Shown: positions 1-9,736 of the stretch, piece by piece | How positions within the stretch are numbered: the first letter of the stretch is position 1 | Layout: each line of letters opens with the position of its first letter | Origin: Deltaproteobacteria bacterium | Lineage (GTDB): Bacteria > Bdellovibrionota_F > JAHFAK01 | Direction: 5' to 3' | Assembly (NCBI GenBank): GCA_023250585.1 | Contig: JAHFAK010000042.1 | Coordinates: forward strand, 6,978-16,823 | Length of the DNA: 9,846 nt | Made by a program: the position numbers and the translations under genes | The notes under the pieces: model-generated | The model's database searches: none | Seen by the model: only the letters and a program-made list of their open reading frames with translations | Told to the model about the DNA's origin: nothing

Positions 1-2730
1 GAGCGTCATACTAAAATTCCACGATTTGTTTTCTATAAAATTACACCTGATGTTTTTACCACATACAATTCCCAATTCTATACAACTGAATTTTTTAAAT
101 GTTTCTTGAAATTCTTGTAATCGATCTTTTTCTATACTCACTATAAATGTTCCTGTTGGTTCTGAGAACATTATTTTTGCATCATTGATGATCAGCTCTA
201 CTCCCCTATTACCTCCTAAAGCTGATTCAATGATTGCGACTAATGCTCCACCATCAGAAACATCATGGAGGGAATGAAAAAGATTTCGATGGGATGAAAG
301 CGTTCGATAGAGATCATTATTCTTTTCTAATAAAACACCCGGAATTTCTTGTATAGAATGATCAAAATTTCTCTCGTACGCGCTGCCGCCAAGCTTGTTA
401 CTGCTTTCGCCTATAAGAAAAATAATATCTCCATCATTTTTAAAATCAGGGGTCGTAATATTTTTTACATCCGTAAATACACTCATCATGGAAATAAGCA
501 GTGTTGGAAGAACCGCATAATAATCGCCATTAATGATTGCATCGTTTTTCATACTATCTTTTCCTGAGATAAGCGGAATTTCATACACTTTTGCGGCATC
601 GTACAGTCCTCGACAATTTTCCACTAATGATCCCAACATTTTTTTATCGCGCAAGGGATCGGGGAAAGAGAAGTTATCAAGCATAGCACTGCGATCAAGA
701 TTACCGCCTATTGCAATGGTATTGCGAACTGCTTCATCTACTGCGTAGAGAGCCATCTGATAAGGATCACGGATCCAGGGCTTTACACCATTGGTTATGG
801 TAACAAAAACATCTTTGCCTAAAAGCGGCGCAAGAATTGCTCCATCAGTCGGCCCTGCAAAGCTATATCCCACATATTCTTTAAGAATAGTTTGGGCTTT
901 CACTTCAGCATCATATCGCGAGAATATTTTTTCTTTTGAGGCAATGTTTGGATCCTGTAAGAGCTTTTGAATAATTTCACGAGGAGCTTTTTGTAGATCA
1001 CGAGCTTTCGTATATTCAATAGTTGGTTTTTCTGCTTTAAGATTTAATACAGGATTTCCGGCATGCAAAAACTCTAAATCAAGATAAGCAACTGTTTTTT
1101 CACCATACACGACATGTACATAACCTGATCGCGTAAATTCACCAATATCGTAATATTCAACACCATGCTTCTCACAAATACGCGCAAACTCATCTGGTTT
1201 ATCAGTCGCAACCGTCATACGCTCTTGCGATTCAGAAATTAAAATTTCCCATGGAAGTATTTTCACGTCTTTTAATAATGCACGTGAAAGATCAATGTGC
1301 GCTCCACCAATATCTCGTGCAAGTTCTCCGATCGATGATGAAAAACCACCCGCGCCGTTATCGGTTAATGATGTTATAAGGCCTCTATCCCGTGCTTCAA
1401 GCAACGCCTCACCTAAAATTCTTTGAGTATACGGATCAGCAATTTGCACCGCACTTGCAGGAGAATCTTCAGTTAAAGAAAGCGACGAAAAAGTAGCTCC
1501 GTGAATTCCATCCCGGCCCACACGGCCGCCAAGAATAATTATACGATCGCCGGCTTTTCCTTTCTTTTCGGCATTGCCTTTGGGAAGAATTCCGCCAGCT
1601 CCACAAAACACCAAAGGCTTTGCATAATATGATTCATCATATAAGCACGCACCATTTACGGTTGGAATACCACTTTGATTTCCCCCGTCTTCAATGCCCT
1701 TTACAATACCTTCGATTAAATTATTTCTGTTTTTGCTATCAAAACATAAAATATTTGTTCCGAATATTGGTTTTGCTCCAAGCCCCGTTCCTAAGATATC
1801 GCGATACACCCCAACAATACCTGTAGAAGCTCCGCCGTAAGGATCAAGCGCCGAAGGTGAATTATGTGTTTCAACTTTAAAACAAATATCATGCTCGTCA
1901 TCGAGAGTGATAACGCCACTATTATCAGTAAAAACAGAAATTAAATAATCTTTTTTTAATTCCTCGGTCGCCTTCTTAATATAGGTTTTAAAAAGTGAAT
2001 TAATAGTTTCTTTTTTGCCATGAATATCGTATTCAATAGTGGCATTCATGATTTTATGTTTACAGTGCTCAGACCATGTTTGCGCAATACATTCGAGTTC
2101 GGCATCAGTAATTTTATGTGAAAGGCCAAGTCGCTCACGATCGTTTTGTATCTTCTCATTATTAAAATAATTCCAGATCGCCTTCAGTTCTTCTGTATTG
2201 AGCGCCAGTAATCGTTCTTTGTTAATTTTTTCAAGTTCAGTTAATGAAAGATCAGCAGGGTAATATTGAATTGCTTGAGATTGCTTCGTCGCTATTGCTC
2301 CTCGCAATGACAATTCTCCATCTGTCATTGCGAGCGGAGCGAAGCAATCTTTTTCATTGCCTTGTATAATCCTCAAATCATGAATAAGCGGATTATGAAT
2401 TTTTCTTTTAAACTCTTCAGTAATTTCTTTTTCTTTTTCAAATATATAAAGTTCACTAACTTTTATTTTAAGATTTTTTACTTCTGGATGGGTAAGCAAA
2501 ATAAGCTTTCGAGCAATTTCAGCTTCATTATCTCGGACATTGGATTTATATGATTTCAGAAGGGCACAGGAAAATGTCAGAGTATCAGAATAATCTTGAA
2601 TAATATGATTACAAAAGAGTTCTTTAAAATTTATTCGAAAAATATCCGTACCGAAAATAGTGTACGACTTAACCTGGCGAGGTTTAGTTTTTTTTAATTT
2701 TCGTCCTATATAAAATGTTACGTGGTCCAT
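1..2730 (-). CDS. purL: Phosphoribosylformylglycinamidine synthase, synthetase subunit with PurS-like N-terminus (3' end cut by window)
   Basis: PurL converts FGAR, ATP and glutamine-derived ammonia to FGAM, step 4 of IMP synthesis, in the cytoplasm. The frame is open from ATG at 2730 to the window edge (910 codons, no stop), so the C-terminus is missing. Residues 1 to about 120 resemble PurS-type sequence, with two YTIFG/LYIFE-like strands and the HNPLI segment. A linker follows, then the FGAM synthase core: WSEHCKHK at 219-226, ETHNSPSA at 287-294 followed by DPYGGASTG, a DNGAGG motif mid-protein, SGKDSM near residue 723 and HDVSDGG near 820. No glutaminase domain is seen, so a separate PurQ is expected, probably just outside the window. 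The start codon overlaps the purCD stop region by 13 nt, which suggests translational coupling. Residues 128-151 come from an in-frame palindromic repeat in the linker between the PurS-like region and the core. The family assignment is very secure; the exact C-terminus is unknown. Confidence 0.96.
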   Translation of the reverse strand, partial: MDHVTFYIGRKLKKTKPRQVKSYTIFGTDIFRINFKELFCNHIIQDYSDTLTFSCALLKSYKSNVRDNEAEIARKLILLTHPEVKNLKIKVSELYIFEKEKEITEEFKRKIHNPLIHDLRIIQGNEKDCFAPLAMTDGELSLRGAIATKQSQAIQYYPADLSLTELEKINKERLLALNTEELKAIWNYFNNEKIQNDRERLGLSHKITDAELECIAQTWSEHCKHKIMNATIEYDIHGKKETINSLFKTYIKKATEELKKDYLISVFTDNSGVITLDDEHDICFKVETHNSPSALDPYGGASTGIVGVYRDILGTGLGAKPIFGTNILCFDSKNRNNLIEGIVKGIEDGGNQSGIPTVNGACLYDESYYAKPLVFCGAGGILPKGNAEKKGKAGDRIIILGGRVGRDGIHGATFSSLSLTEDSPASAVQIADPYTQRILGEALLEARDRGLITSLTDNGAGGFSSSIGELARDIGGAHIDLSRALLKDVKILPWEILISESQERMTVATDKPDEFARICEKHGVEYYDIGEFTRSGYVHVVYGEKTVAYLDLEFLHAGNPVLNLKAEKPTIEYTKARDLQKAPREIIQKLLQDPNIASKEKIFSRYDAEVKAQTILKEYVGYSFAGPTDGAILAPLLGKDVFVTITNGVKPWIRDPYQMALYAVDEAVRNTIAIGGNLDRSAMLDNFSFPDPLRDKKMLGSLVENCRGLYDAAKVYEIPLISGKDSMKNDAIINGDYYAVLPTLLISMMSVFTDVKNITTPDFKNDGDIIFLIGESSNKLGGSAYERNFDHSIQEIPGVLLEKNNDLYRTLSSHRNLFHSLHDVSDGGALVAIIESALGGNRGVELIINDAKIMFSEPTGTFIVSIEKDRLQEFQETFKKFSCIELGIVCGKNIRCNFIENKSWNFSMTL
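2279..2349. repeat. Palindromic repeat element inserted in frame in purL
   Basis: Imperfect inverted repeat. The left arm 2279-2312 begins GATTGCTTCG and ends CGCAATGACA; the right arm 2323-2349 is its reverse complement apart from a 7-nt length difference and a few substitutions; the loop is about 10 nt. Read in the purL frame it gives residues 128-151, including CFAPLAMT and SLRGAIATKQS. From memory, these peptide strings recur in unrelated predicted proteins of many bacteria because the DNA repeat is dispersed. The element leaves the purL frame open and lies outside the conserved catalytic motifs. The inverted repeat is directly visible; its repeat-family identity rests on recall. Confidence 0.85.
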
Positions 2731-4877
2731 TTTTTTCCAATATCTTTACGTATATATTTGCCTTCAAATTTTATGTGATCTGCTGCTCTATACGCATGCG
2801 TAATACTCAAAGCCAATGTTTTATCCCAACCAGTTGCATAGAGAACACGCCCTCCGCTTGTGTAGAGTTTTCCTTCTTTTTCAATTACACCTGCCATAAA
2901 ATAGTGAGTGTTGAGAGAATGAAATTCCTCAAAAGAAATTGCATGCGATTCCGACGTCTTTTCTGGGTAGTTTTTATCGGCAATGGTAATTACCGTTGCA
3001 TGCTCTTGTGCATTGATTTCTGACAATGCATTATTTTGAAAACTTTCAATGATATCATAGAGGCTGTACGAAAAAGTATTCAATAAAACTTGTGTTTCAG
3101 GATCACCAAGTCGCGCATTAAATTCAAGAACATAGAGTTTTCCATCAACGATCATTCCTCCGCAATAAAGAAAACCCTTATACGAATGTCCTGTTTTTTC
3201 CATATGAGTTAAAACTTTTTTAAAAATCTCATTGGATTGTTTTTTAAGATTTTCGTCCCATCCGCCTCCGCCTACTACGTTTTCAGATGCGAGTGAATAC
3301 GAGGCGGATGCCCTCCGTAGCCTTGGCGAAGGAGGGCTCAGTGCTTCGGCGGATTCCGCGGAGCTCCACAATGGATGTGGAGAAATTGCGCCCATGCCAC
3401 CAGTGTTTGGTCCTAAATCGTTTTCATTTTTGCGTTTATAATCAGCAGCTGTTCCTATAATGCTGTATCGACTACCATCTGCAATTGCGAATATGCTGAT
3501 TTCATGTCCTTGTAAGCGTTCTTCGAGTAGTATTTTTTCATTCGATTTTGTTGAATACAACTTTTGTAGAATATCAGTTACTTCTTCTTTTGTTTCTGGC
3601 AAGAACACTCCCTTCCCTTGCGCAAGACCATCAAGCTTAATTACCGGAAGAGTTTTGAAATGAGCAAGAGCCGCAAGCGCTGTTTGAAGATTTTCTACAA
3701 TTTCTGCACGAGCAGTATGCGCATGAACTTCATTCAGAACATTCTTGGCAAATGATTTTGAGCTTTCAAGCTGGGTCGCATATTTTGTAGGTCCAAAAAC
3801 AGGAATATTTTTTGAAGTCAAAAAATCAACAATACCTTGAGCTAAATATTCTTCTCCCCCTGGAATGACAGAATCAATTTCATATTGTTTAATAAAAGAC
3901 AATATTTCCTCAAAAGGATGCGCTGATGTTTTTTGCAGTACTTCAAGTCCATCATGTTTCATGCCTGGATTCCCGGGATATACATATACATCTAAAACAT
4001 CTTTCGATTTTTTGCACGAAACTCCCATGGCATGTTCGCGGCCAGCAGAGCCAATGATTAAAACATTTTTTCTGCCGGTCATTACTTTTGCGGCTTTTCT
4101 ATACAGCTTTGCACCCTTTTCAATTTCTTCGGGAGTCAACGTGTTCTTTTCTTTACAAAAATTTCGTAACAGCTGTTTGGAAAGAATTTCTCCATCAAGA
4201 TCCATGCGTAATTCATCTGGTGTAATAACATCTGCAAGTAAAATATTGTTATGTTCATCAATTGCGAATTCGAATTTTCCGTCCCAAAGCCGCAATTGTT
4301 TTTTCTCGAAAAGATCTTTTAAAAACAGGGAAATCTCTTTCGTATACTCAATAAGAGCATCAAAATATTTTCTTTCAATTCCAGAAATCTGAAATGCTTC
4401 ATCAAGGGTAAGTAAACGATCTTTCTTTTCATATTTGGTTGTAAATTCAACTAAGGGTTCATCAAAAATGGTATTTGGCTGATATCCTCTTTTAATGAGT
4501 GAACTTCCTTGAGGAACACCATAACGGAAAATGCATTCAAGCGGAATCATCTTATTATTTTTATGAGCAGTATTTTCATGATAGTCGTAAACTTCATTGT
4601 GCAAGACTGGTTTATATGCCTTGAAATAACGTAAAATAATTTCATCTTCTTGAGTCTTTAGATGATCCGCACAGGATGTCTTAAATGTTTTATTAAGTGC
4701 TTCATAAATATACTTTGAAAATCGTGCTAAATTTTTACCTTTACCCGGTATAGTATTGGGCATACGTCCAATATCAAATACCGAAAAACAGTCAGTAAAT
4801 TTCATGAGCACATATTCAATGCCCTTTTCGCGAAAGAGGTAGAGATCCTTTACGCTACCTGCATATATTTTTTCCAT
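2718..4877 (-). CDS. purCD: Fused SAICAR synthetase / GAR synthetase (PurC-PurD)
   Basis: A single 719-residue protein carries two purine enzymes. Residues 1 to about 266 are PurC, which joins aspartate to CAIR using ATP: GSSL at 124-127, LWDGKFEF at 197-204 and LADVITPDELR at 214-224 fit the SAICAR synthetase signatures. Residues from about 269 are PurD, the ATP-grasp GAR synthetase that joins glycine to phosphoribosylamine: VLIIGSAGREHA at its start, PNTGGMGA at 490-497 and EFNARLGDPETQ at 585-596. Without the 36-residue insertion at 505-540 the PurD part is about 415 residues, normal for the family. I chose ATG 4877 over the in-frame ATG at 4889 because GGAGGG lies at the right distance only from 4877. 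The gene overlaps the purE end by 28 nt and the purL start by 13 nt. The two activities catalyse non-consecutive steps (2 and 8 in the usual numbering), so direct channelling is not obvious. A sequencing error joining two genes is unlikely because both domains are intact and in frame. Confidence 0.95.
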   Translation of the reverse strand: MEKIYAGSVKDLYLFREKGIEYVLMKFTDCFSVFDIGRMPNTIPGKGKNLARFSKYIYEALNKTFKTSCADHLKTQEDEIILRYFKAYKPVLHNEVYDYHENTAHKNNKMIPLECIFRYGVPQGSSLIKRGYQPNTIFDEPLVEFTTKYEKKDRLLTLDEAFQISGIERKYFDALIEYTKEISLFLKDLFEKKQLRLWDGKFEFAIDEHNNILLADVITPDELRMDLDGEILSKQLLRNFCKEKNTLTPEEIEKGAKLYRKAAKVMTGRKNVLIIGSAGREHAMGVSCKKSKDVLDVYVYPGNPGMKHDGLEVLQKTSAHPFEEILSFIKQYEIDSVIPGGEEYLAQGIVDFLTSKNIPVFGPTKYATQLESSKSFAKNVLNEVHAHTARAEIVENLQTALAALAHFKTLPVIKLDGLAQGKGVFLPETKEEVTDILQKLYSTKSNEKILLEERLQGHEISIFAIADGSRYSIIGTAADYKRKNENDLGPNTGGMGAISPHPLWSSAESAEALSPPSPRLRRASASYSLASENVVGGGGWDENLKKQSNEIFKKVLTHMEKTGHSYKGFLYCGGMIVDGKLYVLEFNARLGDPETQVLLNTFSYSLYDIIESFQNNALSEINAQEHATVITIADKNYPEKTSESHAISFEEFHSLNTHYFMAGVIEKEGKLYTSGGRVLYATGWDKTLALSITHAYRAADHIKFEGKYIRKDIGKKWTT
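3258..3365. repeat. GC-rich repeat-like insertion in frame in the purD domain
   Basis: This segment of about 108 nt is visibly richer in G and C than its surroundings. It contains an inner hairpin, GCCCTCC (3310-3316) with GGAGGGC (3331-3337), and outer arms ATCCGCC (3260-3266) with GGCGGAT (3348-3354); a further GGCGGAT copy lies at 3303-3309. In the purCD frame it encodes 36 residues (505-540), including SPPSPRLRRASAS and a glycine run. It directly follows the conserved PNTGGMGAISPHPLW stretch, where ordinary PurD proteins have only a short loop before the helix leading to YKGFLY. From memory, the peptide LRRASA with flanking proline and serine residues recurs in proteins of other bacteria through a similar repeat. 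The edges are approximate. Confidence 0.72.
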
Positions 4878-5548
4878 CGTTCCCTCCATGTATCTTCATT
4901 TTCTTTTTTATTAAAAAGCCATGTTTGTTTTTTGAGATAATCAAGATAACACGCATAGAGATCACTCGAATCTGTAGGAATTGTATAACGTTCAAAATTA
5001 CCTTTAAGAAATCCATGAATCACTTTTCCAATTTCGTTGATTTCATTGAGTGGCGCAACGAGTACAGGAACTCCTTTGGGCAGAGAATACATTGAAAGAA
5101 ATGAGTCAATAGCTGGATTTGGCACATTTGTATCTTTTAAAACAGGAATTCCAATCACTGGCTTATCACACGCTCCAGCTAGTACTGCAGGTAGTGCAGC
5201 AGCAAGAGACGCACCTGCAATAAGAATTGAGCCATCGAGTTTTTTAACAAATGATTGAATATCTAAAATATTCCGGTGTGCTGAAAATACAAACGTCGCT
5301 ACCGTAAATCCTAGTTCTTGTAACGAAGTTTGCAATTTTCCATAGAACCACTCATCGGATGCACTTCCAAAAACAATATTAATACACACGGTATCAGACC
5401 TTCGCATACCTTCGTTACTCCTCGTCTCATCGTTGCGGCGTAACAAAGAGTACGCCTCACTCCTCGACTTCGTCGTGCCTCGGTCTGCTTGGTCTGATAC
5501 CGTGTGTGAGTGATTACTTATTTTGGTTTGTAAAGTTTGTTTTAACAT
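4850..5548 (-). CDS. purE: N5-CAIR mutase / AIR carboxylase family protein with element-derived N-terminal extension
   Basis: PurE-family enzymes form CAIR from N5-CAIR (class I) or from AIR and CO2 (class II). The conserved core starts near residue 57: GSASDEW at 61-67, FSAHRN at 88-93 with the conserved SAHR histidine, AGASLAAALPAV at 111-122, PVIGIPV at 130-136 and DSFLSMYSLPKGVPV at 148-162. The usual GGAAHLPG motif has become SLAAALPA, so a normally conserved histidine is alanine. Class I or II cannot be decided here; no purK is in view. Residues 14-55 are encoded by a 124-nt palindromic element, so the 232-residue protein is longer than a typical PurE of about 160-180; a C-terminal tail of about 50 residues adds to this. 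The start ATG 5548 overlaps the purF stop in ATGTTAA and is preceded by AAAGG at suitable spacing. An alternative start is ATG 5407 inside the element. Family certain, biochemical class uncertain. Confidence 0.9.
   Translation of the reverse strand: MLKQTLQTKISNHSHTVSDQADRGTTKSRSEAYSLLRRNDETRSNEGMRRSDTVCINIVFGSASDEWFYGKLQTSLQELGFTVATFVFSAHRNILDIQSFVKKLDGSILIAGASLAAALPAVLAGACDKPVIGIPVLKDTNVPNPAIDSFLSMYSLPKGVPVLVAPLNEINEIGKVIHGFLKGNFERYTIPTDSSDLYACYLDYLKKQTWLFNKKENEDTWRERWKKYMQVA
4881..4887 (-). promoter_or_regulatory. Ribosome binding site deciding the purCD start
   Basis: On the minus strand GGAGGGA precedes ATG 4877, with 5 nt between GGAGG and the start codon. It begins inside the in-frame upstream ATG at 4889, so it cannot serve that codon. 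It is one of the clearest Shine-Dalgarno sequences in the window and lies inside the end of purE. Confidence 0.8.
5384..5507. repeat. 124-nt palindromic element at the 5' end of purE
   Basis: Perfect 17-bp terminal inverted repeats, ACACACGGTATCAGACC at 5384-5400 and its exact reverse complement at 5491-5507, bound about 90 nt. On the minus strand the interior has a smaller hairpin core: TGAGGCGTAC (5459-5450), 7 nt, then TACGCCGCAA (5442-5433). The same two core strings occur in the element at 8108-8232. In the purE frame the element encodes residues 14-55 with no stop codon. It contains no gene of its own, so it is non-autonomous if mobile. Confidence 0.88.
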
Positions 5549-8091: not shown

Positions 8092-8107
8092 AGTATCTAA
8101 CGCTTAT

Positions 8108-8232
8108 GAACCTTTCAAAAATGTCCAGATACAAGGCGATAAGCTAAAGTCAGACTGAGGCGTACATCATAGCTACGCCGCAAGGAGGACTTTAGCTTAT
8201 CAACGCCGTAGATGGGCATTTTTCAAAGGTTC
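8108..8232. repeat. 125-nt palindromic element filling the guaA-pyrR gap
   Basis: The outer arms GAACCTTTCAAAAATG (8108-8123) and CATTTTTCAAAGGTTC (8217-8232) pair with one mismatch. An inner perfect 14-bp stem joins GATAAGCTAAAGTC (8138-8151) to GACTTTAGCTTATC (8188-8201). The centre has TGAGGCGTAC (8156-8165), 8 nt, TACGCCGCAA (8174-8183), shared with the purE element on the opposite strand. Its right edge takes in two bases of the guaA stop codon. The stem followed by T-runs on both strands could stop or slow transcription in either direction (inference). From memory, similar sequences are dispersed in several bacterial genomes. Confidence 0.88.
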
Positions 8233-9736
8233 ATTCCCACTCAATAGTCGCTGGTGGCTTCGTTGTAACATCATACACAACACGATTTACTTCTTTTATA
8301 TTATTACAAATCATTGATGCAATTTTTTTCAAATCATGAGGAGCAAAATCAAATACATCAGCAGTCATACCGTCGTTACTGGTTATCGCACGTAAGGCAA
8401 CAGTATATGCATACGTTCGCGCATCACCTTGAACACCTACTGAACGAACCGGTAAAAGCACCGAAAATGCCTGCCAAATTTTATTATAAAGGTCATGTTT
8501 TTTTAAATACTCAATATATAAATTATCAACCTCTTGTAAAAGATGAATTCGTTCTTCCGTTACTTCTCCAAGAATACGAACGCCAAGTCCTGGCCCAGGA
8601 AAAGGATGACGCATAAGCAGCTCCTCATCAATACCCAAAGATCTGCCTAGTTCACGCACTTCATCTTTGAAGAGTAAACGTAATGGTTCATATATTTTAA
8701 ATTCAATGCTCTCTGGCAAACCACCAACATTATGGTGAGATTTAATATTTTTACTTTCAATAACATCAGGATAAATCGTCCCTTGCATAAGATACTCAAA
8801 ATTCTTATATGTATGAACCGCTTCTTCAAATACACGAATAAACGTCTCTCCAATAATTTTTCGTTTTTTTTCAGGATCTTCAACTCCTGCAATTTTTCCT
8901 AAAAAACGTTCCCGAGCATCAATAATAGTAATATCAAGGCCGGCTTTGTTTATCAGATACTCTTTAACATGCTCAGCTTCATTTTTTCTCAAGAGTCCAT
9001 TATCGATGAGAAATCCTTTTACTTTTTTTGGTGCGAGCTGAGACACTACACGTGCAGCAACAAGCGAATCAACACCACCACTAATTGCACAAAGAACATT
9101 TTTTCCGGCAATGATATTTTGACCATCTTTCAAAATTGATTCTAAAATACTTTGACGTTTCCAATTTTTTGGAGCTTTACAAATTTTGAATACAAAATTC
9201 GACAATAATTCTTTGCCATAATGGGTATGGATTACTTCGGGATGAAATTGCACAGCGTAGATTTTTTGCGCTTCATTTTCAAATGCTGCAACAATCTCAT
9301 TATTACTTTTAGCAGTAACCGAAAACTCAGAAGGCATCGCTGAAAAAGAATCATTATGGCTCATCCACACAGTTGAACTCTTTGGTATATCTCTAAAAAA
9401 ATTACTGCTATTTAAAACATTAATTGTTGCGCTTCCAAATTCTTTGGTCACCAAAGGCTCAACCTTTCCTCCAAAATATCGGACTAAAAGTTGTGCGCCA
9501 AAACAAATTCCCAACACTGGTTTTTTGAGTTTTAAAATAAATTCAAGTTCACCGCGATAATCAAAATCCTTCGTTGATAAATCACTCCCACTTAAAATTA
9601 TACCAGCAACATTTTCTATTTTATAGATTTGTTCTGGTGTAATAATTTCTGAGTAAACTTCGTACTCACGTACTCGGCGTGCGATAAGCCGCGTCGTCTG
9701 ACTCCCAAAATCTACAATGACAATTTTATTCTCCAC
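8231..9736 (-). CDS. guaA: GMP synthase (glutamine-hydrolysing)
   Basis: GuaA aminates XMP to GMP using glutamine and ATP. The class I glutaminase domain comes first, with nucleophile Cys78 in LGICFGAQ (75-82) and His165 and Glu167 in VQFHPEV. The ATP-pyrophosphatase P-loop SGGVDS lies at 219-224. The C-terminal region has HHNVGGLPE, HPFPGPGLGVRILGE and the terminal TTKPPATIEWE typical of GMP synthase. The oxyanion-side loop reads SGSDLS where SGGPxS is usual, and Phe79 replaces the usual Tyr. The length of 501 residues is slightly short but complete. Translation starts at GTG 9736, overlapping the guaB stop by 11 nt, with GGAG 6 nt upstream. The stop codon touches the palindromic element at 8108-8232. 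Assignment secure. Confidence 0.98.
   Translation of the reverse strand: MENKIVIVDFGSQTTRLIARRVREYEVYSEIITPEQIYKIENVAGIILSGSDLSTKDFDYRGELEFILKLKKPVLGICFGAQLLVRYFGGKVEPLVTKEFGSATINVLNSSNFFRDIPKSSTVWMSHNDSFSAMPSEFSVTAKSNNEIVAAFENEAQKIYAVQFHPEVIHTHYGKELLSNFVFKICKAPKNWKRQSILESILKDGQNIIAGKNVLCAISGGVDSLVAARVVSQLAPKKVKGFLIDNGLLRKNEAEHVKEYLINKAGLDITIIDARERFLGKIAGVEDPEKKRKIIGETFIRVFEEAVHTYKNFEYLMQGTIYPDVIESKNIKSHHNVGGLPESIEFKIYEPLRLLFKDEVRELGRSLGIDEELLMRHPFPGPGLGVRILGEVTEERIHLLQEVDNLYIEYLKKHDLYNKIWQAFSVLLPVRSVGVQGDARTYAYTVALRAITSNDGMTADVFDFAPHDLKKIASMICNNIKEVNRVVYDVTTKPPATIEWE

Follow-up and report, generated by a model that had tools for sequence, protein, structure and literature searches.

A short mobile palindrome probably inserted in frame into purE of a deltaproteobacterial purine operon

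The window analysed here, a 9,846-nt stretch of a contig from a Deltaproteobacteria bacterium, carries on its minus strand a purine operon with purL, a fused purC-purD, purE, purF, purN and neighbouring genes (purL, purC-purD and purE were called from domain matches, and the other genes were assigned by reading). One open reading frame at 2718–4889 fuses SAICAR synthetase (purC) and GARS (purD), and the complete purine pathway speaks against Rickettsia as the host. The question raised by this locus is where the long N-terminal part of PurE comes from, as the PurE (AIRC) domain begins only at residue 56. The extension was absent from all 29 aligned PurE homologues, most of which begin 1–9 residues ahead of the core. 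The earlier note had ascribed it to an inserted element, and that claim withstood the search for orthologous PurE proteins with the same extension. The features to which the text refers are as follows:

4850–5548, minus strand: purE with the insertion, 232 aa (PF00731 at residues 56–168, E 3e-21)
5385–5532, minus strand: whole palindromic element, 148 nt (sharp conservation limits TA/TA in the sister family; 150-nt removal)
5384–5507, minus strand: inner hairpin unit, 124 nt, the stretch named in the earlier note (arms, fold and copy alignment)
5491–5507, minus strand: inner 5′ arm (ACACACGGTATCAGACC), 100% complementary to 5384–5400
5384–5400, minus strand: 3′ arm (GGTCTGATACCGTGTGT), complementary to the inner 5′ arm, with covariation
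5508–5532, minus strand: outer 5′ arm region, a diverged version of the family motif TACACAACGACATAAATAATTGCGT (weight-matrix score)
5533–5534, minus strand: putative left target copy, TT in purE and TA in most copies (sister-family flanks; 150-nt removal)
5383–5384, minus strand: putative right target copy, TA (150-nt removal; TA/TA flanks are common in the sister family)
5405–5407, minus strand: candidate alternative start ATG (M48), in the PurE frame inside the element (read from the sequence)
8106–8234, plus strand: second member of the superfamily, intergenic, with unrelated arms (covariance model R1, E 7e-6)

The 17-nt inverted arms at 5384–5400 and 5491–5507 are 100% complementary, with 90 nt between them, and the element strand folds at −59.6 kcal/mol compared to −31.6 ± 3.3 for shuffled sequences (z −8.4), so that the perfect termini and the nested hairpin described in the earlier note are real. 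In most copies, including that in purE, a third, outer arm is found 25 nt upstream of the hairpin; a weight matrix trained on the other copies, with the window excluded, locates it in purE at the usual distance, exactly −24 (empirical p 0.003). In the sister family, from genome G193 and its kin, conservation rises at the left TA and drops after the right TA (56 aligned copies), and 44 of the 56 have TA at either end. In the host genome such flanks were found for only 8 of 20 copies, partly because some of them are without the outer arm. The element measures 148 nt, its termini read TACAC...GTGTA and its terminal inverted repeats are TACACAACGACATAA and TTATGACGCTCTGTA. The 124-nt stretch had been proposed as a discrete unit, and a discrete inserted unit it remains, but its upstream side runs further, to about 5532.

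Deletion of 150 nt, corresponding to the element and one target copy, leaves the frame intact and yields MLKQTINIVFGS. The product reads MLKQTINIVFGSASDEW, in which MLKQT joined to INIVFGSASDEW makes an ordinary PurE start, and the removed part codes for PurE residues 6–55. As the deletion is in frame and the 29 homologues are without the extension, residues 6–55 would be the inserted ones, and MLKQT alone would be left of the original N-terminal part because the residues that follow come from the outer arm of the element; LQTKISN would thus be element sequence and not original PurE. This changes the earlier assignment, in which the element supplied residues 14–55 immediately before the core and MLKQTLQTKISN was the original N-terminus: the border with the domain at residue 56 stands, whereas the insert starts at residue 6 and the proposed N-terminus shrinks to MLKQT. 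The view that the insertion lengthened the protein and kept its start is supported as regards the lengthening, and PurE probably also retained its first start codon, the one that is coupled to purF. The relatives of the host among the genomes compared are one genome of the same class and others related at the domain level only; as they are remote, the purE insertion is deduced from the 150-nt removal and not from an empty allele.

Repeat copies elsewhere, which the earlier note had recommended looking for, are abundant. The host genome (2.24 Mb) contains 37 matches to the 124-nt stretch, itself included, the last few of which represent its own arms or fragments alone, and the best non-self copy was detected at E 3e-33; the family thus amounts to about 30 copies or fragments in this genome. 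In the aligned copies the core is common to all and the terminal arms vary between copies. One copy lies within a 956-aa open reading frame carrying TolB-like repeats. The second superfamily member of the window has 27-nt arms (8106–8132 and 8208–8234, ATGAACCTTTCAAAAATG...), a perfect 14-nt inner stem (8138–8151 and 8188–8201) and two near-full relatives in the same genome.

Several individual copies in the host genome showed peculiarities of their own. Four of them (L026, L029, L032 and L033) harbour, at the identical point of the element, a further palindrome (TCCTGCTTCGTTCC...GTAGTAGGA); it is enclosed by CGCARYGA-like repeats, which agree with each other within each copy. The copy at L017:1595–1718 immediately precedes an RNase P RNA-like sequence, and its arms continue into the flanking sequence, 9 nt past the usual end (TTGATCGTT / AACGATCAA). 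This copy suggested that arms might arise by inverted copying of target DNA, an idea for which the other copies gave no support. The copy at L030:1530–1650 abuts a tRNA-Leu-like gene and begins just after a promoter-like TTGACT-17-TATAAA, and its arms are wholly unlike those of the family, yet complementary. Other repeat types may also be present in the window. A palindromic stretch at 2279–2350 (GATTGCTTCG...CGAAGCAATC), in frame within purL and coding for FAPLAMTDGELSLRGAIATKQSQ, looks like an inserted repeat of another type, with a partial match in L033. A GC-richer in-frame stretch at 3255–3370, in the purD part of purC-purD and coding for AESAEALSPPSPRLRRASASYSLASENVVGGGG, is a possible third inserted repeat, of which no second copy was found among the fetched loci.

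Insertion into coding sequences could be followed better in G193, where 76 matches to the family were found. Three of these copies span open reading frames of more than 200 aa in frame, namely those of HisIE, of an AddB-like nuclease domain and of an unknown protein. All three belong to the class with the 124-nt core, which accounts for 4 of the 62 listed copies and which adds exactly 150 nt, so that it keeps the frame; the probability of such a coincidence is 1e-4. HisIE orthologues without the element were found in G194 (MKLHFNINIKFDE) and G172, two genomes of the same family as G193, and AddB orthologues without it were found in both as well. In AddB the insertion lies deep inside the protein; HisIE of G193 reads MKLN, then about 50 residues, then NINLIKFDE, and its insertion is at nearly the same distance from the start codon as that of PurE. 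A further in-frame copy, L253 on contig C172 of G193, lies in a 381-aa open frame and has an extra hairpin nested on one side.

The family is not confined to the host genome. A covariance model detected members in 8 other genomes of the 192 sampled, all of them in other phyla and related to the host at the domain level only. A pattern scan also detected the family in the groundwater MAG Hainich-H32-bin143-1, whose five closest copies are 80–86% identical to the query, while its best PurF match reaches only 34%. When the carrier genomes are compared, conservation is seen in the blocks near GCAAGGCGC, GAGGCGTAC/GTACGCCGCA and AACGCCGCAGATG, and variation in the outer arms and in a middle stem. 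Such a shared core may reflect horizontal spread or, on another reading, strong constraint. Two core patterns gave no match in viral contigs. In the Hainich genome a sister-family copy (L101:1474–1602) stops right where a tRNA-Lys-like gene starts. The flanks of L137 and L176, copies from two genera (G172 and G193), match, which suggests an old, inherited origin for some of the insertions.

The copies elsewhere bear directly on how the PurE extension is to be explained. Were it an ordinary host-specific extension with a chance hairpin, a reading that a single-copy view of the window would allow and nothing else favours, the same sequence should not recur; its multi-copy presence at unrelated places in the host genome and the covariance-model matches in other phyla refute this explanation, to which we give practically no weight. 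A less extreme alternative, which we consider unlikely, is that the element was inserted at the purF-purE junction and supplies a ribosome binding site and a start, so that PurE would begin at M48 (MRRSDTVCINIVFG) with no 50-residue lengthening. A GAGGAG found about 10 nt upstream of the M48 ATG, inside the element, is compatible with such a start, and M48 would place PurE among the homologues that begin 1–9 residues ahead of the core; moreover, two copies of the host genome (L016 and L019) put an in-frame ATG before signal-peptide-like sequence. However, the ATG further upstream, which overlaps the stop codon of purF, lies in the PurE frame and is restored exactly by the 150-nt model, and HisIE and AddB offer true in-frame insertions. 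In-frame lengthening of PurE remains our preferred explanation.

The perfect arms had been taken in the earlier note as a sign of recent insertion or of selection on structure. Two-sided changes were found at 13 of the 17 arm pairs (21 copies from two genomes), and over the whole structure there were 45 cells with two-sided changes compared to 10.6 in shuffles, none of 500 shuffles being as high; the signal was lost when the pairing was shifted by 1 to 3 columns. As the arms of the copies have diverged and are nevertheless complementary, perfect arms do not indicate a recent insertion, and this part of the claim is not supported. Diverged but complementary arms point instead to arm-to-arm correction or to selection on the fold. 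In many copies the arms retain a G.A mismatch, which has become the left arm's version in purE, L012 and L034 and the right arm's version in L028; conversion of a mismatch to either side's version has been described as a footprint of template switching (PMC8794818). Such conversions in single copies, from an ancestral G.A mismatch, argue against the alternative that the arms covary because of selection for a structured RNA or for a DNA hairpin on which the element or host genes depend. This alternative, which we regard as somewhat improbable, would fit with conserved internal blocks and variable but complementary stems across phyla, and with the copies that adjoin rnpB-like and tRNA-Leu-like sequence.

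Taken together, the locus is very probably the product of a short non-autonomous, MITE-like mobile palindrome inserted in frame at a TA-type site after the fifth codon of purE; the multi-copy family, the sharp TA ends, the in-frame fit, two insertions elsewhere with empty orthologues and the covariation of the arms are established. A transposase acting in trans would have inserted the palindrome directly behind this codon, probably leaving a 2-bp TA duplication. The purE frame would have been kept because the element and the duplicated dinucleotide add up to 150 nt, and as the element is stop-free in the PurE frame, the protein would have gained 50 residues ahead of its first strand. The arms would stay complementary mainly because template switching occurs from one arm to the other when the DNA is replicated, and the long PurE would be translated and active. 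Counting against the TA-site model, purE has TT instead of TA as its left target copy. Regarding the mover, the host genome contains Y1 transposases, which were set aside because such enzymes leave no target duplication. The isolated sites of the end motif inspected in two genomes held fragments or lone ends and no full-length parent element, and no transposase was found among the open reading frames listed at three of these sites.

Among the closest known systems are the Rickettsia palindromic elements (RPE; Ogata 2000, 2002), which, according to a review (PMC10969869), are multi-copy palindromes of about 150 nt, inserted in frame in unrelated protein genes and also between genes, and open in the frame used. 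The purE-element family resembles them in being a palindrome of about 150 nt in many copies, within the 100–150 nt of RPE, and in its in-frame gene insertions with empty orthologues, found for HisIE and AddB (G193 versus G172 and G194) and deduced for purE; it differs in its occurrence in other lineages, its three-arm layout, its TA flanks and a core common to several phyla. A search of NCBIfam, which may hold no RPE models, gave no RPE-kind match to E 1. Like MITEs, the family is short, is found at many sites without a transposase, and has terminal inverted repeats with 2-bp TA flanks (the 44 of 56 copies above). In contrast to MITEs, no parent insertion sequence with the same ends was found at the isolated end-motif sites of the two genomes, and the variable arms and conserved core are the reverse of the usual MITE pattern. 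The GTAG- and CGTC-tagged REP palindromes (PMC3733652) are likewise small, of high copy number and in some cases within genes, but the purE element, at 148 nt, is much longer than these (20–40 nt), and its ends, TACAC...GTGTA, carry neither a GTAG nor a CGTC tag. Rfam contained no family matching the element, its sole match in the window being elsewhere and weak (E 0.73), and a literature search with core strings returned nothing relevant. In its behaviour the family resembles RPE and MITEs, and its ends are those of a MITE.

With slightly less than even confidence, we propose that these copies belong to a superfamily of mobile palindromes that is widespread and has not been described before. 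Its members would share a conserved core, their arms would be interchangeable and self-correcting, and they would spread across bacterial phyla and repeatedly donate in-frame peptides to core metabolic enzymes. So far, protein-coding palindromes have mainly been regarded as peculiar to Rickettsia and its relatives, and the same behaviour is now seen in distant lineages. As the same core is present in several phyla and two sites have empty orthologues, the building of protein parts by palindromes becomes testable by comparison. Moreover, the copies constitute a natural set in which to measure how template switching keeps the arms of a hairpin matched.
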